DNA of 64,000 bases from Limnanthes douglasii subsp. nivea (Eukaryota > Streptophyta > Magnoliopsida > Brassicales > Limnanthaceae). The stretch's first letter is position 1; each line of letters opens with the position of its first letter. The stretch lies in NCBI GenBank assembly GCA_036936605.1, contig JAUPFV010000001.1:113716771-113780770 (forward strand), given 5' to 3'. Under the pieces are notes generated by a model that was not told the DNA's origin, did no database searches, and saw nothing but the letters and a program-made list of their open reading frames with translations. Positions 20,051 through 47,800 of the stretch are shown one piece after another. Both the position numbers and the translations under genes were made by a program.

Positions 20051-20425
20051 TTAGAAGTCGAAGTCGTATCCCATGTTTTCTTCATCAATATCATCCTCTC
20101 TTTCCGTAATCACATCCTCAAGATATGCTACCATATCCCTAGTAATGTAATCTACAAATGCCATGCTCCACAATGCAACCGCTTCTTGCTTAATTTTATA
20201 AAGCATAAATAACAAACACTGGAGGGTTTTCACACGATTGTACCTGCTTTTGAATTCGTCACGACTGTGCGTTGGATGATTTGTTACTCCTAATCGGCCA
20301 TAACCGGGATACATCCTACATAGCTCCCAATCAAAAAAAGTATTGCTCGTATCATCATAAATTGTTCAACGGAAAAATTTCACCGCCTAGAGCATCTGGT
20401 AGTCTTTATCTACATTAAACTCCAT
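20051..20425 (-). pseudogene. Small SANT/Myb-like transposon-type ORF, decayed copy 2
   Basis: From ATG at 20,425 the minus strand reads MEFNVDKDYQML, stop, AVKFF, stop, and then an open frame to 20,051. Alignment to the intact protein at 35,647-36,015 is residue-by-residue over most of the length. Compare YGRLGVTNHP with YGRLGFFGPH, the RYN.L/VK helix, and ITRDMVAYLEDVITERED with ISRDMIMYLKEWITHRED. Length is almost the same (~124 codons). Two nonsense codons in the first 20 residues make it a pseudogene. Function is unknown; a short DNA-binding helper protein of a transposon is the natural guess. Confidence 0.65.
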
Positions 20426-20533
20426 CCTAAAATCATTTATATGTTTTATGTTTGTGAATGTTTGGTGGATAAACTATTAAACTAGGTTTCAGGTTCCTTT
20501 TAAAGGACATTCCAATTTGACGGGTAATCGGCA

Positions 20534-20546
20534 TTTGGCGGGAAAA
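20534..20546. promoter_or_regulatory. Consensus E2F site and TATA-like box upstream of copy 2
   Basis: TTTGGCGGGAAAA fits the canonical E2F/DP site perfectly. A TATATATA run is at 20,547-20,554, a second GCGGGA at 20,555-20,560, and TTTGGCGAGAA at 20,585-20,595. All lie 110-170 bp upstream of the ATG at 20,425 on the transcribed side. This suggests S-phase-linked expression. Confidence 0.5.
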
Positions 20547-21179
20547 TATATATAGCGGGAGCAATTGTTTGGATGAAATTAATATTTGGCGAGAATCAAT
20601 GTATGGAGGGAATCATTATTTCGAGGGAATAATTGTTTGGAATGAATCAATATTTAGCAATATATAAAAGGAATTGCTAAAAAACAGCGAAAATTACTCG
20701 GTGAAGGTGTATTTTCAATTTTTTCAATTTTTATAAAATTGTTATTCATTAAAACAAACGCTTAATATCTTTAATTTATATTTGCTTTATTTATTTACAA
20801 ATTCATACTAATTAAAAAACTTCTAAAATATGTAAACTAAATATAGCTAAATAAAATACGGTACATTAAAAACTTATAAACTATGTAAATAAATATAGCT
20901 AAATAACATATAAAAAACAAATAAGACATACAAATATGTTATAATAAAAACAAATAAAAATATGTTACAATTCGTTTTTACAAAAAGACATAAAAGTAAC
21001 AAACACCATGTCAAAATAAACACGAGTGTCAAAAAACTCGAAACAAAAAAAATGTAATGTCTAAGCAAGTTTCTTACCGATAGACAAAACTTTCTCGTAC
21101 GCCAAATCCAAACGCTCGAAACCACCATCAAACTCACCAACTCTATGAAACAAAGAGATCTTACGCGTACCTGCGCGCA

Positions 21180-22960
21180 AATGTCATATGATAGCGTTGT
21201 CCCGATCCTCATACACATAGTCATCTAACTGGTATATGGAACTGTTGATTAAGTTGAATAAGCTAATATTCTGATGCAGCAGAAGATAATCAGGAGTAGA
21301 GAAATAATCCATCTCGTCTCTAATCATCTCTCCCCTAATAACCTCCTCTAACCGGTAATATCGCCAATTAACCCAACTCTCCGCGCCGAATGCATATGCT
21401 ATCGTCTTCGGTTTCCTTTTGGCCTTTAACTGCATCTTGAGCAATTGATGTGGGATAACCCTCTGGACACGACTAAACTGCCTCAACATCCGCTCCGGAT
21501 AGTATACTTGCGAGTTCTCTACACCGACAATGACATCGCGAAACTATGCTATATCCTCAAATAGGAAATCGTCGTGTATCGCACAATAAGGATCAAACAC
21601 TACCTTCAATACAACACAATAAGAACACGAACACATATAAGACTTGACATCCACACCACTCAACCCAACCAACACACGAAAATTATAAAACTATAATACA
21701 TTTTTATCTTATTATATCAATATGTTAAACTATAAATCAGTTTTATCTTATTCAATTATAAAACTTACATCGGTATCTTGTAGGTTGTTGATGGTGATTC
21801 GAAGGTTCAGCTTCGTCCGAGAGTCAGAAATAGTCGGACCTATATCCCATCTCGCAATAATGGGTTGGCACTCCATGTAAGTGGAACGAGTAACAGAGTG
21901 GAGCATAACGAAATGGTCTCGTATCCACGTGTCCAGCAAATTGATACATCCGACCATAATCATGATCTCGTGAAGAGAGACCTCACCGAGATGGTGATAC
22001 AAGTAAGCAAGCATGGCAGTGCTCCATGCGTAATGTCCAACACTCTCCTCGGGTCAAATTGCGCAAAAGAAATAAGTACTTACATTAACGTACATGTTAC
22101 TCTTGTTGGGGAATAGAACGGTGCTGAACATGTGTAATATATAGGCATGCATAGCCTGGTGTACCATAGTGTCGGTGATACCCGAGTAGTCGTCACAGAA
22201 TTGTGGCCACTATACCTAGCCCACAACCATCTGTAACCCAAACGGATGCCCTTGCATTTCTCAACCTCCTTCGCGAAGCTCACCTCGTTAATCCTGCATG
22301 GCCAGCGACTTGTTGGAAATAACACTAAAACAACAACCTGACCCTCTACTGCGAATTCCAATCTAGTGCGCATGTCATCAAAAGTGATCGTCATCTCACC
22401 GAACAATAAATGGAAACTGTTTGTTTTCATATGTCGCCGTTCCAAAAATACCTCCGTCATGTCGGAGTGCGTGTGCATGCACGATAACGGTTCGATCGGT
22501 CTACCGAAAGGTGTACCATCAAGTACGACATGTACCCTACTATAAGAGCTTAAATTCCAACCTCTATAGTTGGAATAATGGACATATATCCGTATTTCGT
22601 GCTTTTGAAAATATTCGGTCTCAATTTTAGTATATATTAAATCGGTACTAAAATATTAACTACAAATGTAAATTACCTTTCCTTGCCAAAGATAGTAGGC
22701 GCCGTGAGAGGTGAACGTCTTTCCCAATAGCGAAAGTAGTCTACCGAAGAAGGAGGTCTAGATTTCCCCTTGATAGGAAAGGTGCGCGTTGCCCACAGGC
22801 AGCGGAACCGGAATTGGGTCCGGAAACATGGGTTCTGAAATAATGGATAGCTCTTCTATCGGAACCGCATAATCGGTTAGTAACTCACGCTCGCTACTTG
22901 TCTGTTGTTCGTCCGATTCTTTACTTTTCGTTCGGGAGCTATCATCGTTCGACGAGAGCT
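21180..22960 (-). pseudogene. Plant mobile domain (MAIN-like) protein gene
   Basis: Minus-strand exons of a plant mobile domain protein (PF10536 family, 'aminotransferase-like'). A proline-rich N-terminal exon lies around 22,960-22,680 (DPIPVPLPVGNAH). The domain core is at 22,560-22,080, with LERRHMKTNSFHLLFGEMTI..D (family pattern RW..ETHTFH...GEMT.TL.DV). The middle is at 22,014-21,748 (MLAYLYHHLGEVS and GCINLLDTWIRDHF). The C-terminal part is at 21,489-21,184 (VLRQFxRVQ-type motif, MLRQFSRVQRVIPHQLL). Such domains occur in host genes needed for silencing and in transposons. Gaps between exons could be introns or decay. I could not trace one uninterrupted reading frame, so I call it a probable pseudogene. 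Confidence 0.65.
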
Positions 22961-25070: not shown

Positions 25071-26185
25071 GGGTCAAGCTATATATACCCAATTCGGGTT
25101 TAAGTATACCCAATTTTGAGTATACCCAAAGATGATCTAAGTATATCCAAATTTTGACAAAAATACCCTTTTGTAGGTATATAAGGTTTTTTTTACTAAT
25201 CTTATCCACCTCATTTTTTCAATTACACTCTCTAACTTCTCTCTAAAACCTTCAAGTTCTCTCTAATTTATCCGGCGAACTAAAATCCGGCGAACTAAAA
25301 ATCCGGCGAACTAAAATCCGGCGAACTAAAATATAAAAACTTAGTCTTAGTATCAAAATTTAGGGTTATGGTTGAATTAGGTAAAAAAATCAGAATTTTA
25401 GGGTGTTTGGAGGCCATTTTCCGGCCAAAATTCGACCGGAAAATGGCCATTTACGAAGGCTGAGCGTACCGGTCGGTACAGGGGGTGTACCGACCGGTAC
25501 GCCCCCCCTGTACCGACCGGTACGGAGGGGGTGTACCGACCGGTACGCCCCCCCTGTACCGACCGGTACGGAGGGGGTGTACCGGTCGGTACAGAGGGTC
25601 TGTACCGACTGGTACACCCCCTCTGTACCGGTCAGTATAGAGTGTACCATAGGTACAGAGGGGGTGTACCGGTCGGTACACCCCCTCTGTACCTATGGTA
25701 CACTCAGCCATCGCAAATGGTCATTTTCCGGCCGACTTTCGGCCGGAAAATGGCTTCCAAACACCCAAAAAATTATGAATTTTTTAGTAATTAAATTTTT
25801 AATTTTTTTTTTAACAAAAACTTCAAAAAAACAAGTTTTGATTTTGTGTTTTTATTAGAAGAAGTTTAAAAAAATTAAAAAGAGTTTGAATGTTCTTGAG
25901 GCAACTTTGAATGTTAAAGAACAATTTGAAGAATTTCACAAAATTGTAGTAATATGGGGTTTGATCTAGTAGAGAGTTGTGTTTTTTTGGGTATACATAA
26001 CCAAATAGATTGTTTTGTGAATTGGGTGTATCTAGGATATACTTAGTGTTTTTTTTTTTTACTTAGTGGCAATTCGGATATTAAATGAAATTTCAAGGGT
26101 TTTTTCGTCCTAAAAAAGTCAAATAAAAGTCAACTGCGTTTTTTGGGTATACTTACATCACATTTGGGTATATATAGCCGTACCC
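25071..26185. mobile_element. Non-autonomous Mutator-like foldback element
   Basis: Perfect 9-bp target duplication TTTGACAAA at 25,062-25,070 and 26,186-26,194. The terminal inverted repeats start GGGTCAAGCTATATATACCC (left) and GGGTACGGCTATATATACCC (right, reverse complement), 17 of 20 bases. Both ends carry subterminal copies of AGTATACCCAA. A second inverted pair lies further in: the block TGTTTGGAGGCCATTTTCCG near 25,404 against its complement near 25,735-25,765. A 9-bp duplication and GGG..CCC ends fit the Mutator superfamily. It has no transposase; long open frames in the centre are repeat artefacts. Confidence 0.85.
25466..25700. repeat. GTACCG(A/G)(C/T)CGGTAC palindrome-rich minisatellite
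   Basis: Core of the foldback element. The forms GTACCGACCGGTAC and GTACCGGTCGGTAC alternate about every 30-34 bp, separated by CCCCCC or GGAGGGGGT spacers. About nine copies occur. The local GC content is far above the surroundings. Confidence 0.9.
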
Positions 26186-29084: not shown

Positions 29085-29517
29085 GAATCACGTATCATGT
29101 ATTTGTAAAATTTGAACTTTGGATTATCCATGGAGTAGTTCTGTACGACGAGTAAAAATTTAGAAGGATGATTATTATTGTAAAAGGGACTCGATAGTAG
29201 AATTTGAAAATCTTACAGTAAATGCCTTATTATAATGAAACTGAGACGTAAAATAGTGTATCTAGTTTCGTCACAAATCCATGGAGTTGTTTGAAGAAAG
29301 ATTTCAATAAGTATGAACAAAAAAACAAATAAATAAAAAGGATATGATTTTATATAGTTATTTCAAAACAAGTTTTATTTTGATAGATAACAATTTTAAC
29401 GTTACTTCCTTTTTAAAAAAAAATTAGACAACGGCATGATTCTAGTACTACTCTAAAAATTTAATAAATGTTATATATTAAACTATATTTATTTCATCTG
29501 CAAGTCTAAAAATTAAA

Positions 29518-29640
29518 GGGAAATGTCACACTAAATACCTTCTCACCAAACTTATTATCATCTAGTACCCCAACTATTTTCTATGCCTACTAAATACCCA
29601 TCTCACCAAACTAATTCTTTTTTAATACCGAGCTAATATT
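29518..29640 (+). repeat. Left terminal region of the MULE
   Basis: Starts GGGAAATG directly after the target duplication. It holds two internal copies of TAAATACC..TCTCACCAAACT (about 29,532 and 29,590), so the terminus is itself partly tandemly repeated. Confidence 0.6.
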
Positions 29641-30525
29641 TCCCTTCCTGAAATACCCTCAAATGTGTCAGATTATTTTCAAACCACAATTCAAAATTTG
29701 AATTTTCAATAGTACAACCTACTCTGCTATTTTGAAAAGTTGTAATGAACCTATACCTTTTTCAAAAGAAACCATTTTCAATCAATCTCGTTGTTTAAAC
29801 TGATTTCCAAAATCAGAAAAAAGGTAAGCTTCTATCAATTTTTGTTATGCTTTTCACGAGTAGAAGGTGTGTTTTTTTCCAACTTTTGTTAGTTCCTGGG
29901 TTTTGTTAGTTCCTTGTTTTTTTTTGTTTTCAAAGATTTCAAGTTTACTCTTTTTACATTAAAGTCTTGTTTATGTTTAGACCTTGTGGAAACCAGTTTT
30001 TTTAAAGTTTTTTCATAGTCCAGATTTGTTACAAGTTCTTTAATGGCGTTATATCTTACCATGTGTGTTGGTGAAGACGATAGCTGTAGTTTACTGTTGC
30101 CTCAGCCTTTATACTCTATCTCGCGCGTTAAGTCTGTTATAGTACTGTTCGCGAGTTGTAGCCTACAACAACCTACAACTCGCGCGAGGTTTTTTTAAAA
30201 AAAAATTGAATTTAATAATGACGCGATATAGGTTTGCCACTGGAGGAACTAATTTAGTATTGGACGTTTCGCGCGGCTCAGATCGGTGATTTACCACACG
30301 AGTCATATCTAAAGGCAAGTAGAATCTATATTTCGTAAGAAAATAACGTATTATATAATTCATTGTTATCTAACGCGATTCCCATCCCGATGTCTTGCGC
30401 GAGACAGTAGACACGGCAGCGCGAGTCACCCTATCAGTTAACATCCCAAGTCACGCTTGGAGTGACGTGATTTAGGGCAGCACCCTCACCTAGCCTAATT
30501 TCGTTTATCATTTGGAGCCTCCTAG

Positions 30526-33056
30526 ATGTCTAAGCAAAGAGTTTATATTTTTAAATATTTGAAGCAGACCTCAATCGTTCCTTTTAGCGCGTTTGAAAAC
30601 TTTGAATCTGTTGAAAAATATATTGAAGGTAGATGGGATGATCTGGTTAAGGGTTGCTACACTATTTCCTACTTCTGTGGCGGTGAAAATTACTGCTTGT
30701 TTACTAACGAGACTGATTTCATTGGTTTAACTGTTTATCTCGATGTGGAGCGTCTGAAAAGCGTTAACTTCTTTATAGAACAACGAGTAGTTGAAACAGA
30801 TGCGAATGACATTGGTAAACAGCCTACCGTAAGCTTTGTAGAACCTTCTGATGATCATTTACTAAGCGGGGAGAGTAGTAATGGTTTAATCGGTTCCTAA
30901 CATAAAAAAGACATCTTGCCACTATGGGTTGGGTTGATGCTATAACAGGAGTTGGTCAGACATTCGCTGATGGTGCCTCCGGTTTAAGGTTATCTTCATG
31001 CCGATATGCTTTAGAGCTAGGTTTTGCTTTCAAGTATATGCATAATACATCCACTAAGATCACTGCTTACTGTGTCAACAAAAAGTCAGGTTGCAAATGA
31101 CGACTGTATGCATAAATAGATTCCAGCACTGGTTTCATGATGATCGAGCACTTTACCAACACCCATTCATGTAGCCCGGTATATTCCAAGAAAAAAAGTA
31201 GGCATTTGACGTCCGATTTAATCGTGGATGAAATACATGAATCAATTTGGACAAGTCATTCTTTAACAGTAAAAACTATTCAGTCTTCTGTCAAACAAGA
31301 CTATGGTTTAGATATTTCCTACCGTTTATCGTGGAATGCGTTAGAGAAGGCGAGGAGGGTAGTTTTTAGAGACAGTAATACTTCGTTTTGGTTGTTTAAT
31401 GCATATTTTAGAAGATTAAAAAGTAGAGATATTACTACAGATTGTCATCTGGAGGTTGGTTTTGGGAATGTCTTCAGGAGGTGTTTTGTGGCTTTCGAAT
31501 CATGCATTCAAGGCTTTCACTCATGTCGACCATTGTTGTACGTGGACGGTACCCATTTAAACGGCAAGCATGGTGGTGTCTTGCTGTCTGCAGTGGCCAA
31601 TGACGACAATAACGGTTTGTGTCTGACCTTCTTTTAAATGTAGATCTATATGCGTGGTAATAAGATAGAGTAATTCGTATTTCAGAATCCCGTTTAGTAG
31701 CGCACATATAACGCGATATAACCTCAACTAATGTGATCGATTCATGATGTATCGACTTTACCATCCTAAGCAATCGCGCGATGCTTAGTTTGAGTAAAGG
31801 TACACACAACACGATACATCATATTCCTATTAAGCATGTCACGCGAGATAGGTATTGGATGACGACGCTAGTCACGTTGCACATATAACGCTAGATACGT
31901 TATTTATTATACGAAACTTCACGCGAGATAGTAGATGCATCATATCAATTGCGCCTTCATCAATTCTTATATCCTTATATTATAGACTCCATAAACCTAT
32001 TTTCATATTACATGCATTTTTCCAGTTGCTTTTGGTATTTTTGGTGGTGAAGATTCTGATAACTGGATGTGGTTTATGGAATGTCTAAAACCTCATTTGT
32101 TAAACCGTCAAATCACTTTTATTTCCGACAGACATTCTGGTATTATTAATGTTGTTTCCGTTATTTACCCAACCTGCTTTCATGCTTACTGTATATATCA
32201 TTTGGTTAATAATTTGAAGTCAGCTCTTGAAAACACCAACCGCTAGTTTAAGAAGAAAATGTTGAAGCGATTCAAAAGTTGTGCTTACGCTTCAACTGTT
32301 GAACTTTTTAATCAGAGACTTTCCAAGTTTTTAAGTAGAGCTGGTAAAAATGTTAAGGCTTTCATCGATAATTTGCCTCCCGATAAGTACGCCCAGCCCT
32401 TCGTCATTGGCAAATGTTACGGGGCGATGTCATCATCTGCTGCCGAATCCTTTAACAATCAAATTAAAAAGTTTTGCAATCTACCGATTGTTGAAATGAT
32501 AGACAATATTAGAGTTATGCTAATGACTCAGATTTCTAGACGTTATTCAGAAGGGCTAAGCTGGAAGAGTTATTTGTGCCCCGAATTTGAGAAGCAGTTG
32601 AATTAGAATATTCAAATGGGTCGAACCTGGGTGGTATCTAAGTCTTCTGCAGGTTCATTCGAAGTTTATTCTGAACTAGTTATGGTTGTCAACATACTTG
32701 ATTTTAAGTGTTCGTGTGGTTCATGGCAGCAAGAGTATTTTCCACGTGCTCACTCATTGGCTGCAATAACGTCCGTGAACGAAGATCCTATGATGTTGGT
32801 AGAACCATTCTACACTGTAACTAATTATAGATCCACCTATTCGTTTAGCATACCTTCAATAACCGACTATGGTGAAAGTTCATCATCTAACGAATCAAAA
32901 GGACCTGTTGTTCTAACTCCTAACACAAAAAGGCGAGCTGGAAGGCCAAGGAAGAAGAGGATTCCATATAGAGGAGAAGTATCATCTACCCGCTTGCGCT
33001 GTGGCCGTTGCTTTAAATTTGGACACAAACGAAGGACATGTGATATGACAGTATGA
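30526..33056 (+). pseudogene. mudrA-like: MULE transposase (MURA-like, DDE, SWIM, zinc knuckle)
   Basis: Blocks in order. 30,526-30,900 is an N-terminal domain. 30,924-31,097 is the MuDR-type DNA-binding region (RYALELGFAFKY, then TAYC..KSGCK). 31,137-31,637 is the linker and first catalytic Asp in LLYVDGTHL (codon 31,545). An intron ending TTTCCAG at 32,025 follows. From 32,026 come VAFGIF..E.SDNW, the second Asp in ISDRHSG (32,127), and the Glu in SSSAAESFNNQIK (32,445). Next is a SWIM-like CSCGSWQQ..FPRAHSLAAI in which the usual third Cys is missing, an AT-hook-like AGRPRKKR, and a CX2CX4HX4C zinc knuckle (LRCGRCFKFGHKRRTC). Stops lie at 30,898, 31,098, 31,113, 32,244 and 32,604. The 31,098 TGA stands where family members have Trp. 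It is recently dead but structurally complete. Confidence 0.9.
31620..32025 (+). other. Probable intron of the transposase gene, with motif copies
   Basis: Separates the first catalytic Asp exon from the second. The acceptor is a clear TTTTTCCAG. The donor is probably a GT just after 31,610. It contains several copies of the element-wide motif (ACGCGATAT, CACGCGAGATAG, ACGCTAGATAC). Confidence 0.6.
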
Positions 33057-33997
33057 GCTTCCCGTCGAAAGCTTATTTTGTTTACATATTTATTATTTAG
33101 TATGTATTTACTTGATAGCAATTGTTCTGTATCTTTCTCATGGTATTTGCCCAAAATTTATTAGTTGATACCCTTTAATGGCATATAAGTTTGCATTTGT
33201 TATCGTGTATTACTTGTAGTTTGGTTGAAGCACGCGAGACGTTAGTGTAATGTAACGCTAGACACCTATAAGTTTTTGACGTAACGCGATATGTTTGCAT
33301 AATACCATGCTAGATGAGGTGCTACTGGAATAAAGCACGCGAGTTGTTATGTGATGATGACGCAAGTCACGTTTCCTTTTCCCTGGTAACGCGAGATATT
33401 ATTGAGATATGACGCTAGACGTGATAACTTGTTGCAAAGCATGCTCGAATACCGTTCACTACCTAGACTTAGCTATTATACGACGCTAGATGTGTATATG
33501 GTATTCGACAAAACTCTTTTAGTTGATACCCTTTACTGTCATAGAAGCTTTCATATAAGATTGTAGACTAGTTGAAGTTTTCGTATATCACGCGGGACAT
33601 TATTGTGCCCTAACGCTATACGTGGCTAATATAAGACGATAGGCCTGTTTCAGTTTCATAGGATACGCGAGATATTAGTCGTATATGACGTTATTGGCAA
33701 ATCATATAGGATTTACAACGCGTGACGATAAATTTTACTATCCATCTCTACTGTCTTATGTTTTTCAAATGGAGGGTGTCAAATACGCCATCAAACTATC
33801 GAAACATAGACTCAGATCCATTGGTAATTTTAACATTGCAATAGGAAATAAGAAAGACAAGTGAAATACATATGGATAACATAGGGCCTACCCATGCCCA
33901 GATACTAAACCCTAATAAAAAAAACATCCAAATACAAAATGGTTTACAATTAGAAGCACCAAAAACAACTGAAGAGTTACCCTAACACAAGTATATT
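33057..33997. repeat. CpG-motif array between convergent genes
   Basis: No gene. From 33,220 to 33,720 there are about 15 copies of ACGCGAGA, ACGCTAGA and close variants on one strand sense, irregularly spaced at 10-60 bp. Confidence 0.75.
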
Positions 33998-34429
33998 CTA
34001 ATAATCTGAAGAGTTACCTTCCTCAGATGTGTCCTCCTCATCGTCCAAGTCCCCGTCTGTCTCTTCATCCTCCTCCTCTTCATCCTCGTCTTCGGTTTTC
34101 TCCCCTCAGTAAGAATCGTCGGATGAGTCCTTCAAAGACTTCCTAGGATATATCTTCATCCTGCCCGTCTTCGTCTTCTTGTTCTTCAGTATCCTTCGTC
34201 GTTTAGTATACCAGTCCATGTCGGAATCCTCTTCCGGCCACGACAGTGAGTACTTAGAGTCATACAGAGTCGTCAGTGAAAGGGATGGAGTGAAAGGATT
34301 CGACTCAGCGTCGGAAGAGTACTCGGTGGTAGTCTCCCGCTTGTAGTTGTATTCTGAGTGCCGAGAAATCACGTCGGAAAACGTACCCTGAGAACCGTGA
34401 TTGCCGTAGGAGTCATCTGAACCGCTCAT
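33998..34429 (-). pseudogene. Small Ser-rich protein with acidic tail, MULE-encoded
   Basis: The ATG at 34,429 opens a Ser/Tyr-rich protein (MSGSDDSYGNHGSQ) with a basic patch near residues 76-95 (TKRRRILKNKKTKTGR). A TGA at 34,106-34,108 interrupts it. The same frame continues as an extremely acidic tail (DEDEEEDEETDGDLDDEED) to a TAG at 33,998, about 143 residues in all. I recognise no family. Because the tail stays in frame and strongly biased past the stop, the TGA looks like a recent mutation (or a read-through). The next gene upstream on the same strand is the SANT-like ORF. Confidence 0.45.
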
Positions 34430-34479
34430 CGTCGATTTTTGCTTTGCTATGGAATATAAAAAGTTTTAAGAATTGCAAT

Positions 34480-35460
34480 AGTCTAATGGATAACCATGCA
34501 AGCAAACGCGAGACGCCTATTTATATAATTTTGAATACAACGCGTACCCTAGTGAACATGCAATGAGTGCTTATCTATCCTAGTCACATCCTTCATTAAT
34601 AAACCCAATGGAATTAGTGAAAAGACATCCCATTGTCTTTTCACTAGCCATTAATTCTGACGCGATTTAAATTTGAATCACGACTACCAACGCGTACTAC
34701 AACCCAAATATTATACATTTCTCCTCTTATTGATTAATTCTAATTATTAACTTTTCAATTTTTATTATTTTTAAATTTACGATTAACTAAATAATACATA
34801 GTGACGTGCATTATAAACAATATAAAAATTTGAACTTGGTTGGATGAATAATGTTACTTTGTCGATTTTTTAAGTTAAATTAAATATTCGAAAATGTGTC
34901 CATTACCCATGAAATAGCACGCGCCATGGTCAGTTTATTCGACTTGTACAACGCTAGATAGATTACAAATGAAACAACTCGCGCGAGATGGATGCATATA
35001 ACGCGAGACGTTAAGTTCAGATCACGCTAGATATGTGCTTATTGACATGAGACATGACGCTAGATTACCATATCATATGGCGCGAGATGTGCATGTCATA
35101 CGACGCTAAAGATGACGTTATAGTACATATCAGACAACTCGAGAGATTAGGTTCATAAGACACTAGATATATGATATTCCACTATGACACATGACGCTGG
35201 CTTAACAAATCAAATGACGATAGATGGGCACGTCTTAGGATGCGAGATATGCACGTAATATGTCGCTAGATTAACAAAACATACGACGCAAGATGTGCAC
35301 GTTTCTTGACGCTAGATGTTCACGTCTTATGACACTAGATGTGCACGTAGTATGACGCTAGATGTAACCATTGTATGGCGTGATATGACGCTAGATTAGC
35401 CCTAACTATGACGTTAGATGCAAGCGTAATATGATGTACAACGCGTCTTCCCCTACGGCT
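34480..35460. repeat. Dense CpG-motif array
   Basis: The densest part of the element's motif array, especially 34,910-35,440, where ACGCTAGAT / GCGCGAGAT units alternate with phrases such as GATGTGCACGT. Spacing is usually 15-35 bp. It lies between the acidic ORF and the SANT-like ORF. No coding potential. Confidence 0.85.
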
Positions 35461-35646
35461 GATAAACATTAAGGGAATCACAAATTGTAACCATTTGTTG
35501 AAAATTACAGTAACCAAAAAGTCATACATTCATAACATTACCAAACTTAGTCCATTACATCCAATTCAAAGACTACTTTGCTCTTTGAATAAAGTTACAA
35601 TTTTGACTTCGTTAGAAAAAAAACATTAATTATAAAACGACGGTTA

Positions 35647-36015
35647 TCATCTAACCGGTGAACAATTTTCAATGGCATCTTCTCTATGTGTGATCCATTC
35701 CTTTAGGTACATAATCATATCTCTTGATATCCAATCATTATCTTCCCACTCCCATAAGTTTGCTGCCTCTAAGCGCAAATCTAGACAAAGATTAGAAACA
35801 CGTAGCAAGGGTTCGGATTTCAATTCGTTGTACCTCGCAGCGATGCTTTCTCGTGTCAAAACGTGGGGGCCGAAAAATCCAAGCCTCCCATATTCAAAGT
35901 ATATCATGCATAAGACTTGATCGAAAAAAATGTCGGCCGCTTCATCCGAGCTTGTTCTTTTCACATACTTCACGGCTTGAAGCAAGTGTTGGTCTTCATC
36001 GACGCACCAACTCAT
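35647..36015 (-). CDS. Intact 122-residue SANT/Myb-like MULE protein
   Basis: An uninterrupted ORF from ATG at 36,015. It begins MSWCVDEDQHLLQAV, the W..DED..LL.AV pattern of a SANT/Myb helix 1. LCMIYFEYGRLG and SIAARYNELK follow, in the position of the recognition helix R..RYN.LK. It ends with an acidic ISRDMIMYLKEWITHREDAIEN. It is probably a small nuclear DNA- or histone-binding helper of the transposon; this is inferred from pattern only. Two decayed relatives lie at 19,079-19,493 and 20,051-20,425. It is the only MULE ORF that is fully open while the transposase beside it has several stops. E2F-like sites are upstream. Confidence 0.65.
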   Translation of the reverse strand: MSWCVDEDQHLLQAVKYVKRTSSDEAADIFFDQVLCMIYFEYGRLGFFGPHVLTRESIAARYNELKSEPLLRVSNLCLDLRLEAANLWEWEDNDWISRDMIMYLKEWITHREDAIENCSPVR

Positions 36016-36139
36016 ACTTATTTCATATTTGGAGTGTTTTAATTGTTTAAGTGTATACTATATGTAGTTTTGTGGTTGTATATATAAGGGCCAAATAATA
36101 GGTGGGTAACTAGACAGGTAATATTTTGTAGGTTAGTGC

Positions 36140-36180
36140 TTGGCGGGACAATATCAATGACCAAATCATTTTTTGCGGGA
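36140..36180. promoter_or_regulatory. E2F-like sites upstream of the SANT-like gene
   Basis: TTGGCGGGAC (36,140-36,149) and TTTTTTGCGGGAG (from 36,169) lie 125-165 bp upstream of the ATG at 36,015. Both share the GGCGGGA / GCGGGA core seen upstream of copy 2 at 20,534-20,560. The spacing to the start codon is similar in both loci. Confidence 0.4.
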
Positions 36181-36548
36181 GTTTAATATAAATTTTATCA
36201 CGCGTACTAACTACTGTACTAGATTTCCTATATCGTGCCATAAAACATTCACCTTTGTTGTGTTACAGCCGTCACCCGCGTGATAGTCAGACAATCATTC
36301 ACATAGTATCTAGCGACTGTTGCACCGTAGAAACTGTTGCGTGAATCACATGCAACATACGGTGCTAGTCTACTTATATCTGTATCGCGAGTCGCGGACA
36401 ACACAGAGTGCTAATTTATTTGCTACGCTGGCATGAGTTACATCCAACATACAGTGCTACTTTTCTTACAAATGTCTCGCGCAACACACAATCCATACAA
36501 AACGTTTTGACTAACATACAAAACTTTTTAACTAACATACAATGCGTA

Positions 36549-39500
36549 TTAAACAAAAACTCTCACGCGAATATGCCAAACAAAACATAGCATGCACGAT
36601 TCACGTCGAACATACAGTCCTACTAAACATACAAATTTGGCGCGATTTACGTACAAAACACAGTGCTGGACATCAGAGGCGCTTAAATTAGTGTTCTTAT
36701 CATTCAGGAAGTGGTTGAAGATTTCTGCGCGTGCTTTAGCGGGCATACACTTGCTATATTTCTTTCCTACAAACTCGTGCTGAATAATATCTTTCACATA
36801 CTGACAGACGAACACTCCACAGTCAAGCGAATCTTTATGTTGTTGTGGAATTTCTCTAGCTTCTCTAACTTTGTATCCATTCTTCACACGTGGTATGTAT
36901 CTCTTCTTGATACAATAATTCAACTTGTCAAATACGAAAAATGTTAGTTTATAATTTTGAAGTTAAATGTGTACTCGTAATTCTGCGAATCACTTTACAG
37001 TAGGACGCGAGTTCCATCATTTTACACGTGATTCGCACACACACAGATGCGAGACGTATGCAATGCCCATTACGGTGCTATTCACCATCGCGCGTAATGG
37101 ATAAGTAGCCTGCAAACAATGAACATAAATAGTCATACAATAAGGTTTCATACTACTTACCAAGGCGTCGCCCGTTTTCCTAGTGTCGTTTGGAGTGAAT
37201 TTGCTAAGAGGGGCCAGAGGATTGTAGTTTTTGGCCGAACCATTCTCCATGTCTATTACCAACAACGTCTAGTGGTTAGTACCTTTTTCATTTACGGTGC
37301 ATACCGGAATGAATGTGATAAATGTATCTTTCGAGTTTTCAAATACTGCGTCAATAACGTTTGTAACATCTGCTTTTTTGACTAGTAATGTCTGTAATAG
37401 ACCCAGTGTACACCATAACAATATCAAACTTCTTGTTCACTTTAAATGCCTATTTATTAATTAGATACTAACCGTTGCGACACCTGAAATCTGAATAGCT
37501 TTATATCTACAGTTGTACTCGTCATCGATCCCTTTAAAAGGTACAGTCTAGTTTGATTCTTGAAGCAGCTTATATATCCAGGCATCGATGATCTACATCA
37601 CGTAAAAACATAGCTATATCTAGAGTAGTTGTCAATTATTTGTGTTTGATCAAGTTTCTAAACTTTACCTTGAAATCTAGCTCCCCTTCGTATGCTACAG
37701 CCATTAGCTCTGTCACACTAACACTTAGCCGGTATGTAAATTCGTGTTCTGGCAAATACCATACTTCAGAGTCTAGTTGATCTGCGTTTTCTTGTATTCG
37801 AACGACCTTGCGGTACTGACTAACGTCTATTAACTTCGTAGTTGCTGTTTCTGTTTCCCAAGTTTGTTCAATAGCTCCCGCATGTTGCGACTGTGTAAGT
37901 AAATCCCAATTTTGATTTATATTATCTACTAACTGTAAAACGACATAAATTGTGTTAAATAACAATCACCAAGTTACAATTCAGTATCTGACTGTTAGCA
38001 TACTTTAGAACTTACCATTGTAGGTGCATCTCATAATACACTTTTCGACGCACTAATGCCACCCGAATTTCCTCCACTCGAGTGTATAGCCGCCGCCTTA
38101 TCAAATTCTTCAAAAAATGATTGTGTATACAATAGGAATGCATCATCGAGGTTTGGAAGATCAAAAAAATCTGCTTCCACTCCCACTGCTGGTTGTAGTT
38201 GTTCTCTTATCTCAGGTTGTGTTAGTACTTCCACCTTTGCTTTGCGTTGCACTTCCAACTTAGTTTGCGACTCATTTGTTGATTTTATAGCAGCTCCCAA
38301 CTTAGTCTTAAACAAACGTTAAAATCCCCTATTTAAATCCGAAGTTTGAAAAACAACAGCGTGACCAAATTAAAAACAAATCAAGTTTAACCTAGCTATA
38401 AGAAGTTGAATCATAATAATTTAAGATCCACTTACATCTTCATATCCTTGCTCTATGGCCGTGGGTACGCTACGAGGAGTTTCATGTAGCCCAGTTCTAT
38501 TCATTTCAGTCCCACTTGTTTGCTCACCAACTTTTGCAATTGCCAAATCTTCCACCGTGCCTTTTGAATCAACATCACCACAAACTGTATCAACTGCAGC
38601 CTCTGCACGATTCTGTTCTCCCGCAGTCTCATTATTACTCCTTTTTTCTACAACATCTTCCTGTAACTCTTGTGCAGTTTCAGCTACGACCTTAAGAGGT
38701 TCTGCCTCTATTGGTATTGGTTTAGGTGCTGCTGCCAGTATGGCATGTTGCACTGCTTGGTCTTGAAACTCTTGAGCAGTTTCGGCTACGACAATATTTG
38801 CTTCTGCTTCTATGGGTGTTGGCTCATGCTGCTCAGCTTGGTCTTCAAACTCTTGTGCAGTTTCAGCTACGACAACATTCGGTTCTTCTTCTATGGGTAC
38901 AATAGCAATTTGCACCTCAGCATCCCCTCATACTGCACCCCCACCAATATCTGCCTCATCTGTAGCCGCGACAAGCCTGCCCCTCCGCCGATGTCTCCGT
39001 AACATCATTCGGTCCATCAGCAGCTCCAGATGCATCATTCTCCTCATCCGTTTCACCTCCATCTTCTACCCCCTTGTGTGTGTCTTCTTCTTTATCAGTT
39101 TTTTTTTCTGTCATTCTTCTAACCTTTTGAACCCATGTTTTCTTGAGACATAAACAATGGTTTTAGGAACCTCATCCATTGTTACTGATACATCAACTCT
39201 TTTCACTGGTGACTCCTCTTCTACCGAACATAAAGGTAGTACATAAACCTTCTCTTGTGCTTCATTAACCCCAGCTTCTTCATCATCTTCGTTACCTTTA
39301 TCAGCTTGTTCTTGAAGGTTCAAAGTCAACAAAGCAACCTCCCTTTAGAGTTCTTCAATCTGTGGTGAAATTTAACAAGTATTAGGAAAAGTAATGAAAA
39401 TGCATCATTAAGATTTACAACCTATTAAACGACTTACTTGTCGATTCTTTCGTGCAAGAGAAATCTTAAGCCTTTTGTTTTCTACGGAGTATCTGTATTT

Positions 39501-41304
39501 TCCACTGCTTCTCTTTTTAACAGATTCCATCCTCTTAAATAAAATATTACATGCACTTGCCTTGTAAACTTTCATCCTTTTCGTCCGAGTACTTGAGCCG
39601 CCATCTTTCTCCGGTGTATTTTTTTTTCTGATTCATCCCCTCTGCAGCTGTTGCCTGTAAACTCATCCACTCTCGGGTAATTAACTGTTCCAGATCCCTC
39701 TCCAATCCCCATCTTATTTGTTTTCCCTCCACTACAATACTTGGCCCGCTTCCCTCTTCTACTCATCATCGTCTTTTTCCTTTTGCTTGTCAACTTCCTA
39801 ACAGACCCTGCCCTAGACTCCCCCTACCCGAAGGCCATTTCTTCAGCTTCCGTCAACTCGACCTCTCCATCCAACACCTGCAACACGCAACATTAACGTT
39901 TAAACGAACAGTGCACACGAACGTATAACATTCTTATTATTCGAATCAAGTATCACGATGACGCGAATCGTGTGATGACTTAGTACTCATCTCGCGACGC
40001 GAGTCATAACCCCATTACCTTCACGCACGATTCACTTAGTCCCTACAATGCGATTGGATCACCACCAACAACATCTGACGCGATGCAGGCCGTGCAGATG
40101 TTGTTGTTGGTTTTTTACCTGTCCACACATCAGACGCGAGTCTCGTACACGATACGCGCAACGTACACGTGATTGGTAGCATATACATCTCGCGCGCTAG
40201 AGATTTTAGTATTAAATATATCTCGCGAACCATCAGTCAAGGTTTGCGCGAAACGTCACTCATTTAAACATATCAAACGGCCATATATTACCTCATCTTC
40301 TGCCAGCTTCCTCACCCTTTTAACGACCGCAATAGTGGACTCCTTGCACTCCAGCCCTCACCATTTGTAGCACATAGGTATCATGTTTGGCCTTACCAAA
40401 TATTCCCCTAGCGTTGTGTGCTCCATTATAAAGGGCTTCGAAAAAAAGGCACACTCGTATCACTTTTATAACAGAACAAAATAGTAAACTAATACTTCAA
40501 TACACACCAATAACACTGCTACGCAGCCGATGACGTGATCTGGTGTCCCTTTCTCCAAACAATTAACCACAGACTTCGTCAACTTCTCAACAATTGCTCG
40601 CGACCAATCATAGTCATTAATTTTGAGCATGTCTTCTACGTAGAAAACCATTGTCCAGCCCATGATATCTCCAGACACAGAGTAGAACAGGGTAGAACAA
40701 ATGAAGAGTATCAAAATCTTCGCAACGTCGGTTACTGATTCCTCATCCCCATCCTTTGCTGCTATTTCTATTGCTTCCTGTATCAAAACAGACCGTAGTT
40801 ATTTAATTGTATATGCCAAAACATCCCTAAGTCTAATAATCTCTTCTTTTCTACCTTTATCATCGCATTTGAAACAACCTTTTGGTTTGACGGTCCACTT
40901 TTCCTCGCCCTTGGACGCAAGAAATATTTCTGCATCAGTGGAGACTCGTTCTCCGCACCATCTGCAAATCTTCCAGTGAAAGCCCCTGCTCTGTTCATCG
41001 GCATTTCCTATGTTCCGTGTTTAAGACCGAAGATGGCTTTAACGTCTTTCGTTGTCAGCTTAACCCGCTTCAAACCTATTCTAAAGCACCCATTCTTTAC
41101 ACAATATCTCTTTATAATCTCCTCTATAACTTTGTTAAACCTCTTCTTCGGCAGATCTTCGTTCCGTATCGTGAAGGAAGTTTTCAGCAAAGTATAGAAT
41201 GACGTGTTTTTCGTAGCCTCGATATGCTCCTCGGTCACTATGTCTTTCTGCAGCAAATTTAATATGCTTACCAAACTAGACCTGTAAAAAGTACCTTTTC
41301 CCAT
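36549..41304 (-). pseudogene. DUF1985-like / Ulp1 (C48) protease gene of the MULE
   Basis: A multi-exon minus-strand gene. 41,304-41,008, 41,004-40,783 and 40,786-40,466 encode an N-terminal domain of the DUF1985/plant mobile domain type (VKLTTKDVKAIFGLKHG; DWSRAIVEKLTKSV; GCVAVLLVC). A Lys/Arg/Glu-rich middle follows (39,800-39,111). Four tandem copies of a ~32-residue repeat with (V/I)VAETAQEF..QA are at 38,900-38,670. A linker is at 38,315-37,636. The C-terminal Ulp1 domain has IPVC....NH, stop, TLLVIDM (catalytic His codon 37,272-37,274; the next codon, Trp in relatives, is TAG). In it YNPLAP stands where Asp is usual. It then has PQQHKDSLDCGVFVCQYVKDI (Cys codon 36,819-36,821). Exon borders are approximate. 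The nonsense codon and missing Asp suggest no protease activity. Confidence 0.7.
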
Positions 41305-41497
41305 AGCAGAACCTATGTGGACAAAACAACACCCATGTAAGATTTTAGCAATGCATAGCTCCTCGCATAACTATGTCCTAGTAGAACTCATTATAAGCCA
41401 AACTTTAATCAGGTAACAAATACAACGCGTGACACGCCTACAATATTGCGCAATTTAGAGGACAACGGCCCATGTTCTTAAGTACAACGACTACATA

Positions 41498-42232
41498 ACG
41501 CGACACATTCTATACATATCGCGCGTGTTACCTATATCCTGAAATGTATGCTTAAAATTGTCTTATTCCCTCCTGTGAGACACGTACGCGAGATACGTGC
41601 GCGAGACTCGATACACTCACACACACTACTGCAACCCAACTAAATACTACCCATGCTACATAACCGACGCGAGATCAGTTTTGCAATGTCAACTTAATAT
41701 GCGCCAGAACCACCTAAAACCAACCCACATTACACTCTCTCACGCGATATACTCTAACAAACTGCTCCAAACCAACTACAAACTAGCCACACTAGAGTCC
41801 CCCACGCGAGACACTATAACAACCCTATTTCAGAAGCCTAAAAACCAGACAACGTTCAGGCCTAACGCGACACATCCTATACATATCGCGTGTGTTACCT
41901 ATATCCCTGAATTGTCTGCTTAACAATGTCTTATACCCTCCCGCGAGACACGTACGTGAGACACGTACGCGAGTCTCGATACACTCACACACACTAGTGC
42001 AACCCACCTATATACTACCCATGCTACATATCCGACGCGAGATCAGTTTTGCAATGTCAACTTAATACGCGCCAAAACCACCTAAAACCAACCCACATTA
42101 CACTCTCTCACGCGATATACTCTACCAAACTGCTCCAAACCAACTACAAACTAGCCACACTATTGTCCCCCATGCGAGACACTATAACAACCCTATTTCA
42201 GAAGCCTAAAAACCAGACAACGTTCATGCCTA
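41498..42232. repeat. Tandem duplication of a 367-bp motif-bearing unit
   Basis: Two consecutive copies (41,498-41,864 and 41,865-42,232), each starting ACGCGACACAT.CTATACATA and ending in AACGTTCA.GCCTA, with few differences. They lie in the right subterminal part of the MULE and double the number of ACGCGAGA-type motifs there. Open frames inside are not genes. Confidence 0.9.
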
Positions 42233-42779
42233 ACGCGAGACATTGAAAGAAAATGCTAACAACAACCCGCATAATACCCCTTAACCACCCCTTCAAGCGA
42301 GACGCTAATACACATATGGCCAAAGCAACTACAACCTCCCTTAGAATCCATGTTTCGTCTTCCCCAAAAACTTACCTTACAGTCACCGGTCGGAAAAGCA
42401 AACCAAAGTACTGAACCGATAAGCCAGTTACTGAACGAAAACGGTTCAAAGGGATATCATCCAACATTCACTATACTAAACATGATTAAGAAAAAATGTG
42501 AGCCCTAACCTTCGTTGTAGTTTCGACAGTTCGAACTTCACCGTCCCCGGTGGTTCTTGCTTCAGACGAAAAAAAACTAAAGACAGTCTACACGACGATT
42601 ATGGATCACATCGATCGCTTCGAACCACAGTTCTGCTACCCTCGCCGGAGTTTGTTTGCCAAAAACGAGACGGCGGACAGAGTTCTTTTTGGTTCAATTT
42701 CTTCTCTGACTTTCTCCTTCTGTCTTTTCGGTTTCTAAAAGTTTTTGGGATTTAGGGGGAAAGTAAAAATTAAAAAATA

Positions 42780-42900
42780 ATAACCTACTTTCTCTTTCTT
42801 CTAGTCTTAGGGCTAATTTGGTAAAAATAAGTAAAAGTTTCATATTTGGATACTTATTTGAGATTACATATTTAAAAAGGTATTTAGAGGTAATTTTCTC
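42780..42900 (-). repeat. Right terminal region of the MULE
   Basis: Read inward on the minus strand it starts GAGAAAATTACCTCTAAATA and includes ACCAAATTAGCCC, matching ACCAAACTAATTC at the left end. It is followed on the plus strand by the target duplication AAAATTAAA. Confidence 0.6.
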
Positions 42901-42909
42901 AAAATTAAA

Positions 42910-44849: not shown

Positions 44850-47800
44850 CTTTTATAAATTGTTAAGCCTTTCTCGGTGTACGATATTTTTTGTATATGA
44901 ATTTGAGATGTCTTCATCATTGTTCACAACAATTTTATGTCATTTTCTAGAGGTTACTCTAGATAATGCGACATATAATTGGCCATGAGTGAATACTGGT
45001 TGAGGGAGATAAATACCAACTATATTCAAAGATCGTCCCTGACTTTTATTCACAGTCATTGCATAACATACTCTAATAGGAAATTGTCTCCGTTTAAATA
45101 TAAATGGTTATTTATTTTTTGTTGATGAAACATCAATGCGAGGTATAAAAACCGTATCACCAATGTTACAACCGGTTATGATTTTGGCTACAATAACTTT
45201 ATTGCTCATTTGTGTTATTATTAACCTTGTACCATTGCATAATACTGAAGATGGATTCAAATTTCTTAACAACATTATATGTACAATTTTTTTTAGTATT
45301 AACTCGTGTCTGGGGATACCATTAAATTCTAATTTATTAAGAAATCAAACGGATACAAAAGGTAAAAACTTTCTGAATTTCCACATGTTTTACATATAGA
45401 ATCTGAGCTTAAATAAGTCTAACTTTTACTCGGTATTAAATTTAAAATGAAATCATTTATATGTGATACTCCATTGTTTTTTTGGAGTAACTAGTGTTCT
45501 TTCACTTAAATAAGAGTAATTATCAAAATTATTCAGAAAATCATTATATGTCATACTAAAAATAGAGTGAATAGGATTATTAGATGATTTAGTAATTAAA
45601 TCTGGTGGAATTTTAATCCATGAATATTCATCATTGTTTGGTGTAGTTAAATCAGAAATATAACCTTCCCCAACTTTTAATATCCAATCAGCAAAATTAT
45701 TTAACTCTTGTTGTTCTACATCGTTTAAGCCATTGTTAGACAATCTCATATTTTGTTTTAAAGAGAATACTTTAAAGTGTTTACATAGAAAAGAACTGCT
45801 TAAAGACACATTGACAATCTCTTCTCTCGTTCCTCCTGTTATAACTAGTAAAATTTGTCTGAAATCACCTCCTAATAAAATAGTTTTCCCTCCAAATAAA
45901 TTATCATTTCCTTCTTCATAGATTTTCGGTATAATATCACGTAATGATCTATTAAGAGCCTCAAAACAAATTTTATGATTCATTAGTGTTTCATCCCATA
46001 TAATCAAGATGCTTCTTGAATTAACTTAGCAAGATGTGTTGATTTTTTTTATTTCACATGTAGAACATTATGTTATACTTAAAGGAATTTAAAATCTCGA
46101 ATGTGCAGTTCTACCTCCAAGAAGAAGTAGGGAAGCAATTCCTGATGAAGCAATCACAAGAATAATTTTTCTTTCGGATCTAAGTTTACTAATAATAACG
46201 TTCCATAAAAAAGTCTTTCCTGTACCACCATGTCCGTATACAAAAAATAGTCCTTGTTTTTTAGCTACGATCGAAGAGGTAAATGAGTCATAAATTTATT
46301 TTTATTCGTCATTCAATTTGGAAACTAAATTTACCTGATGTTGGATGCACATATGCTAATCTACCTATATATTTACCTTGTTTTCTCAATTTCCAAATTT
46401 TGTCATGAGCATCCCAAATAACTTTTATGGGAAATTCTGCATATGATAGTGTAAGAGCTTCTTTATATTGTTCATATGCATCAAACCACCTTGTTAACAT
46501 TGAATTTTCAATGTTAACAACCGATTGAAGAGTTACATTAGAATCAAATATAATAAATTGCTGCAAACACAAATGAACATGTAATCTTTGAACATAAGGA
46601 TGTCTCGAATGTATGTGAAACTGAAATATTCTCCAAACAGATTCATACGAGCATAAATATCGACAATTAAGATGCGCAAGAATTTCATTAGTTTTATCTT
46701 CTTCCAAAACAACTCGAGCTCTATCTAATCCTTTGTTAATATATTTGAAAAGATACTTAATGAGCATATATTGACGACATGATTGAACATTAATATGAGC
46801 TTTATACCGTACCAACAATTGTTTATTATAAGGAACAACAAATATATTATCAATATGTATTTCATTTTTATTAATGTAATTTGATGGGATGTCACGACGT
46901 TTATAAGTGACATAACTATTTGTTTCTATGACTGTTTCAGTTTTAAACTATTTAGGATTTTTTTTGTGTATTTACCATTTTCCATGCATGGAGAATATGT
47001 ATTCAAAATTCCGCAAGGACCATAAATCATAAACCGACTTACCAATTCATATGCAATTGGATCAATTTCTTTGTTTGGAATTTCTGCTGAAATTATAGAG
47101 TTGATATCTTGCGGAAGACTGCATGCGTATTTCGAGTCTAACCAAACTAACAAATGACAATGAGGAAGACCTTTTTTTGAAATTCAATTGTATAAACATC
47201 CGCGATTATACAAATAATCGGGATAATATATATTATTAGTTATAGAAATAACTATATTCAAAAAATATTAAACTTTAGATAATAAAATACCGTACATGCT
47301 ACAACTTTTGCAAAAGGTTTTCCTGATTTGATGTAAGATATCATACTATCGAGTTTCATTTTAAATACTCTTGTGGAAATATCGGGTCTATCTTCAGCTT
47401 TATAACCTGGATTTATAAAGAGTTCTTTTATAATTTCCGGTCATTTTTTATTGCATGTAAACGTAATGAACAAATCTGGATTACCAAAATATCGGCAAAT
47501 TGCCATTACGTCTTGATAATTATTTATCATATACCTAACACTTCCGGTGTGAGAAGATGGTAAAATTATCCTTTTCTGAATATCATTAGCATTTGTTTCC
47601 CATTTTGATATTGCATCGTGTATTCCTTTATAAATCTTAGACCTAAAAGTTTTTTGATTTTTTCTAATAAAATCTAATCGATCTTCTTCAAGAGTTGCAT
47701 ATACATTTACTAAATATTGTTGGAACAATCTACCACCTTTTAAGAAAGAAACATCATGCAATTTTCTATCTTGAATTTGATATGAGTAGAAATCTCTCAT

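Follow-up and report, generated by a model that had tools for sequence, protein, structure and literature searches.

The window analysed here is a 64,000-nucleotide stretch of the 1.78-Gb genome of Limnanthes douglasii subsp. nivea (contig 1, C1:113716771-113780770). It contains a Mutator-like element (MULE) of 13,383 bp on the + strand (29518-42900, borders set from the terminal matches of relatives and a 9-bp duplication), and the non-coding DNA of this element carries a dense array of the nine-base motif ACGCKAGAY in a single orientation. Among all loci examined the array is concentrated in one element family. With a probability of roughly 0.57, the array would be a family-specific address bound by an anti-silencing factor that the element encodes, probably the product of its large minus-strand gene. 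An independent motif/protein pair of the VANC kind, as put forward in an earlier note made from the letters of the window (the original prediction), is the likeliest reading; both the identity of the binding protein and demethylation upon binding are what we infer.

Motif array in the window

Exact ACGCKAGAY was found 22 times, always on the + strand and in non-coding DNA of the element, between 31841 and 42241. This density is far above that of shuffled sequence (mean 0.43, maximum 3 for the whole window). The "dozens of copies" first described are reached only when variants are counted: at one mismatch or fewer the element holds 56 sites on the + strand, where shuffled sequence averages 3.6 and never exceeds 9, and a further 11 sites on the - strand. 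The described avoidance of exons was borne out, with 0 sites at ≤1 mismatch in about 6.6 kb of putative exons (approximate borders). Absence from the rest of the window holds for the exact motif (0 in the 50.6 kb outside the element) and not for its variants, of which nine one-mismatch sites lie there. When two mismatches were allowed the contrast weakened, with 29 sites in the exons and 200 outside the element.

Four of the seven regions originally proposed hold all 22 exact copies and three hold none:

31700-31940, + strand: motif cluster in the transposase intron; 3 exact copies, 5 at ≤1 mismatch
33220-33720, + strand: motif cluster; 6 exact copies, 11 at ≤1 mismatch
34500-35440, + strand: largest motif cluster; 8 exact copies, 17 at ≤1 mismatch; 23-bp tandem unit at 35214-35365
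41400-42300, + strand: motif cluster upstream of the large gene; 5 exact copies, 15 at ≤1 mismatch
30110-30430, no strand assigned: CGCGA-rich stretch; 0 exact copies, 3 at ≤1 mismatch (shuffles reach 3)
36190-36660, no strand assigned: CGCGA-rich stretch; 0 exact copies, 3 at ≤1 mismatch (shuffles reach 3)
39960-40260, no strand assigned: CGCGA-rich stretch; 0 exact copies, 5 at ≤1 mismatch on mixed strands (shuffle maximum 3)

In the intron cluster the five sites at ≤1 mismatch equal the shuffle maximum, and the three exact copies compare with a shuffle mean of 0.02. None of the three stretches lacking exact copies was confirmed as a motif region: at 30110-30430 and 36190-36660 the variants lie within the shuffle range, and only at 39960-40260 do they exceed the shuffle maximum. 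Further motif sites at 37005 and 37047 fall outside all seven regions.

The commonest start-to-start spacing of the motif is 23 bp, and a spacing of 13 bp occurs three times in the window. A 368-bp tandem duplication covers part of 41496-42243, within the cluster upstream of the large gene. Array-bearing copies differ from one another in their tandem repeats. Such 23-bp units, the 368-bp duplication and an array length that varies strongly from copy to copy (e.g. the L034 intron, L010 and L013) are in keeping with a passive minisatellite, in which slippage and unequal exchange would have spread the 23-bp unit and gene conversion homogenised it with no protein bound. This origin is considered unlikely: spacings of 29, 33 and 46 bp recur and 56 bp also occurs, separate clusters of one element share their orientation, the putative exons are free of the motif, and the motifs of the transposase intron are more conserved than the intron around them.

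The observed/expected ratio of CpG was 1.33 in non-coding DNA of the element, 0.80 in its putative exons and 0.64 outside the element; the level within the element is unusual for DNA where methylation is expected. At 25466-25700, GGTGTACCG lies on both strands within a local palindromic repeat. TGTACCG at this site was considered as a second array and rejected, since it belongs to that palindromic repeat.

Distribution in the genome

Single ACGCKAGAY sites number 23,050 genome-wide, compared with 8,997 for the reversed pattern. Same-orientation pairs with a gap of 10-40 bases number 6,515, compared with 6 for the reversed control. Half of the variants of this control hold fewer CGs and the genome is CG-poor; the control would therefore be expected to be the commoner pattern by chance. 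Head-to-head pairs were found at 16 sites genome-wide, this pattern being identical on both strands and each site thus appearing twice in the search output.

Genome-wide presence of the motif, named in the original prediction as a refutation, was not taken as one: eight array clusters on contig 1, among the pair matches listed, could be placed, and all match the family of the window element. One of the eight sits in a transposase-bearing copy (L016). For comparison with other MULE families, two FAR1-type MULE loci of the same genome were read over 6 kb each and held 0 exact copies and 1 one-mismatch copy. Other Ulp1-type families are also present, as judged from 112 matches in a genome scan with PF02902.

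The positions of the clusters upstream of and between genes (41.4-42.3 kb, 34.5-35.4 kb) would suit a promoter or enhancer, or a platform for host transcription factors, driving the genes of the element. Strict motif orientation is unusual in enhancers, some of the motifs are clustered within an intron, the eight placed clusters belong to one family and the two other MULE loci lack the array; this explanation is regarded as very improbable.

Sister copies and short relatives

The transposase exon gave at least 150 genome matches at 80-100% identity. The best-scoring 30 of these, including the window's own copy and one near-duplicate pair (L019 and L020), were taken as the sample of sister loci. 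At least one exact motif on the transposase strand was present at 26 of the 30, in agreement with the array expected in sister copies; in total 80 exact motifs lay on the same strand, 4 on the opposite strand and 0 matched the reversed control. The near-duplicates L019 (C112:188145788) and L020 (C112:188372974) have equal scores, lie on opposite strands 227 kb apart and are probably an inverted segmental duplicate.

A near-complete sister copy (L075+L076, C1:34963501-34982000) holds 25 exact motifs on the + strand and 0 on the - strand. It covers the element from position 741 rightwards to the end, the left end having fallen outside the stretch read, and its main matches are 87-94% identical. 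It carries three copies of a 1.4-kb unit that includes the large gene's repeat-bearing exon. Two further copies (L014+L015 and L016+L017) match the left 5.5 kb of the element and hold 7 and 10 exact motifs, respectively, in a single orientation.

The N-terminal exons of the large gene also have at least 150 relatives in the genome. Among the 150 transposase matches listed, 54 have a convergent N-terminal match downstream within 30 kb (median 10.8 kb), and 1 shows another arrangement (random placement mean 0.81). Five N-terminal matches on one strand at intervals of about 93-96 kb (C112:370949277-371326168) suggest a tandem segmental duplication.

The seven other array loci on contig 1 all have the family's right end, and five have both ends. 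The latter, delimited short copies are about 1.9-3.4 kb long and lack most of the element; in four of them perfect 9-bp duplications lie at, or within 2 bases of, the set ends. Apart from their ends and the array, these copies match the window element in short pieces only, and the remaining sequence is unmatched. Relative to the ends, the array is inverted in three of the seven loci.

TnpA of En/Spm acts on subterminal DNA and binds subterminal repeats. The motifs might similarly be sites of the transposase or an accessory protein that serve synapsis and not anti-silencing, and the short copies bear on this, for copies with termini and array were mobilised, as the 9-bp duplications indicate. 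An array inverted in three of seven loci would be odd for a fixed synapsis site, and in contrast to the terminal or subterminal sites of En/Spm and MuDR the clusters here span the whole element, including an intron, at kilobases from the ends. Targets of VANC proteins, by comparison, are reported from introns and intergenic DNA (Hosaka 2017, PMC5735166). MURA of MuDR acts on terminal repeats, and both TnpA and MURA are among the element-encoded proteins linked to methylation loss in their own family (Sasaki 2023, PMC10398659), so the two roles may overlap. On balance, a synapsis function is unlikely.

Under the anti-silencing reading, full copies would supply the protein, and the short non-autonomous relatives, in which the termini persist and the array is amplified, would use it too.

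Conservation of the motif

The transposase intron was aligned from 28 of the 30 copies (L020, the near-duplicate, and L034, in which exon 2 was not found, were excluded). The 54 motif columns were 0.878 identical, a value between those of the remaining intron (0.774) and of the flanking exon pieces (0.94), although the motif windows were chosen on the consensus, which may slightly favour motif columns. The identity of the motif columns was reached by 7 of 455 circular shifts. Motif CpGs were kept in 178 of 216 cells; for the other CpGs of the intron the figure was 311 of 491, and for those of the exons 311 of 360. From these alignments the oriented motif array appears to be under some constraint.

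Another CG-rich word, TATCGCGYG, occurs in introns with few ACGCKAGAY (L026, L028, L041, L045 and L047), and the per-intron correlation of the two words is -0.51. The introns of all 6 elements in one N-terminal sub-group carried TATCGCGYG on the transposase strand, as did 1 of the 6 in the other sub-group (Fisher p = 0.015, in an exploratory test in which the word was picked after seeing the data, ancestry was uncontrolled and 12 of the 28 introns had a linked N-terminal match). Counts of ACGCKAGAY did not differ between the two sub-groups (p = 0.51, 12 introns). It may be that different sub-groups of the candidate protein already follow CG-rich words of their own.

Genes of the element and the candidate binding protein

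The following features were assigned within the element and at its borders:

29509-29517, no strand assigned: left target-site duplication AAAATTAAA, the same 9 bases at both borders
29518-29541, + strand: left terminal repeat, an imperfect inverted match to the right end, conserved in relatives
30526-33053, + strand: transposase gene, exons about 30526-31634 and 32013-33053 (from translation)
34018-34434, - strand: short acidic reading frame, interrupted, between motif clusters (read by eye)
35647-36057, - strand: 136-aa frame, called "SANT-like" in the original prediction; family not assigned
36549-36962, - strand: last exon of the large gene, with Ulp1/C48 cysteine box (weak PF02902 and SENP5 matches)
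38421-38927, - strand: variable region of the large gene, with 81-bp (27-aa) repeats (repeat analysis)
40285-41370, - strand: N-terminal exons of the large gene, about 40855-41370, 40508-40777 and 40285-40431
42876-42900, - strand: right terminal repeat, an inverted match to the left end, conserved in relatives
42901-42909, no strand assigned: right target-site duplication AAAATTAAA, 9 bases matching the left border

The best inverted match between the element ends is 22 nt at 77%, i.e. a degenerate terminal repeat. Relatives of the window transposase match PF03108, PF10551 and PF04434, which identifies a Mutator-like transposase. Several reading frames are broken in the window copy: stops and frame changes interrupt the transposase, and the N-terminal exons of the large gene carry stop codons. 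No relatives of a transposase piece or of alignment A1 turned up in a protein database.

Order, strand and splice-like junctions are the grounds on which we infer that the minus-strand N-terminal and C48 exons form one gene. Its protein would have an N-terminal domain specific to the family, a variable region bearing repeats and an Ulp1-type C-terminus, the N-terminal exons being the candidate DNA-binding part. The element-encoded protein would bind the dense same-orientation copies of ACGCKAGAY in introns and intergenic DNA and, once bound, would strip silencing marks from the copies that bear the motif.

Several results weigh against this reading. The "DUF1985-like gene" of the original prediction failed the Pfam test: the joined N-terminal exons, taken from an interrupted copy, matched no Pfam family at E≤10 and DUF1985 was undetected. 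A genome scan with PF09331, made with no separate DUF287 scan, gave three sub-threshold matches only; two of the three were read and both proved to be plant-mobile-domain proteins. The Ulp1 signature found instead in the last exon is weak (PF02902, E=0.004, below the cut-off; SENP5, E=0.0064, a weak C48 match), and the window's own C48 exon is absent from the 112 matches of the PF02902 scan. Exact same-strand motifs are lacking at 4 of the 30 transposase loci, a large-gene match is lacking in the stretches read of L014+L015 and L016+L017, and 95 of the 150 transposase matches listed have none of the 150 N-terminal matches listed within 30 kb. Compared with the near-complete sister, 14 of 22 motifs are identical against 47.8% of non-motif non-coding 9-mers, and CpG is kept at 68 of 83 against 166 of 215 sites, both modest excesses. 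Gene conversion and tandem duplication could lie behind part of the conservation and of the single orientation.

DUF1985 was not found by profile comparison either, a comparison that was uninformative. An AlphaFold2 model of the N-terminal exon, built with 20 close relatives, reached a pLDDT of 39, too low for use.

The SANT-like frame is encoded between motif clusters and is also present in the near-complete sister, and it could be its product, not the Ulp1-type protein, that binds the array and works with the Ulp1-type protein in anti-silencing. Searches of Pfam, and of PDB at E≤1, gave no match for it. Next to a FAR1-type MULE that lacks the array lies a distant relative (32% over 113 aa), and this makes the SANT-like protein the poorer candidate for binding; a second relative (36%) lies in the window at 20084-20461, where there is no exact motif. 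Binding by this protein is judged improbable.

Relation to known systems

In the VANC21/VANDAL21 (Hiun) system of Arabidopsis the targets carry the 9-base motif YAGTATTAY, which has no CG; it is dense, tandem and in the same orientation, lies in introns and intergenic DNA, and is rare outside the family (Hosaka 2017, PMC5735166). VANC21 has a variable region with tandem peptide motifs, VANC proteins contain DUF1985, and binding and demethylation by VANC21 were demonstrated (PMC5735166). The window element resembles that system in being a Mutator-like element with a separate gene and a short, oriented, dense, non-coding tandem motif. The large gene likewise has a variable region with repeats, and the triplicated 1.4-kb unit of the near-complete sister parallels the tandem peptide motifs. 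The systems differ in the motif, ACGCKAGAY having one or two CGs, in DUF1985, which is undetected here, and in that binding and demethylation were shown there and are predicted here. The array anatomy matches that of VANC targets, which suggests that the window array works like one; it is VANC-like in anatomy, and VANC membership is not claimed for the element.

The related VANC6/VANDAL6 system has a motif of its own, AGTTGTCC/AGTTGTAC, different in sequence from that described here, and the VANC6 motif is also carried by AT9TSD1, a family without kinship to VANDAL6 (PMC5735166). The array-bearing short elements differ from AT9TSD1 in sharing the termini of the full element. VANDAL elements have degenerate terminal repeats and compete with RNA-directed DNA methylation (Sasaki 2023, PMC10398659); the window element is like them in its degenerate terminal repeats, single motif orientation, non-coding placement and tandem repeats.

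A VANC-type gene with Ulp1 is conserved in eudicots in the Ulp1-carrying VANDAL elements (KIU), with family-specific motifs; such genes act on their own families, and capture of Ulp1 is dated to the monocot/eudicot separation (2026 review PMC13317346 on Sasaki 2022). The large gene would be of this type, with a weak Ulp1 match and a single gene predicted from separate exons, and the CG-bearing motif may or may not already be listed in Sasaki 2022. VANC/Ulp1 anti-silencing in eudicots has already been published; what appears to be new is that the motif bears CG and that it is amplified in short copies. The 2022 work reportedly also covers periodicity in spacing and the part played by non-autonomous copies. 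No title or abstract opening in the literature found describes an ACGCKAGAY array, the motif string itself not having been searched.

Tentatively, the family may represent a VANC-like, non-DUF1985 system in which a CG in the site would make binding and methylation an exclusive switch, and in which the swarm of short copies would draw on, or soak up, the factor; this extension is possible and rather doubtful. If the protein binds the array, it would be an anti-silencing factor with a CG-carrying site, and how it finds methylated targets becomes directly testable. The transposase copies, at least 150 in number, and the thousands of motif pairs are a natural series for protein-target co-evolution and non-autonomous parasitism. 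Epigenome editing has been named as a use of such protein/motif pairs (Hosaka 2017, PMC5735166).

Other features of the window

The acidic frame at 34018-34434 gave no Pfam family in a scan that covered a 30-aa piece only. Mobile-element remains lie at 20054-22655 on the - strand and include, by eye, a plant-mobile-domain-like protein next to the second SANT-like relative. At 45453-46025 a 190-aa frame resembles, by eye, a helicase of the Helitron/Pif1 type.

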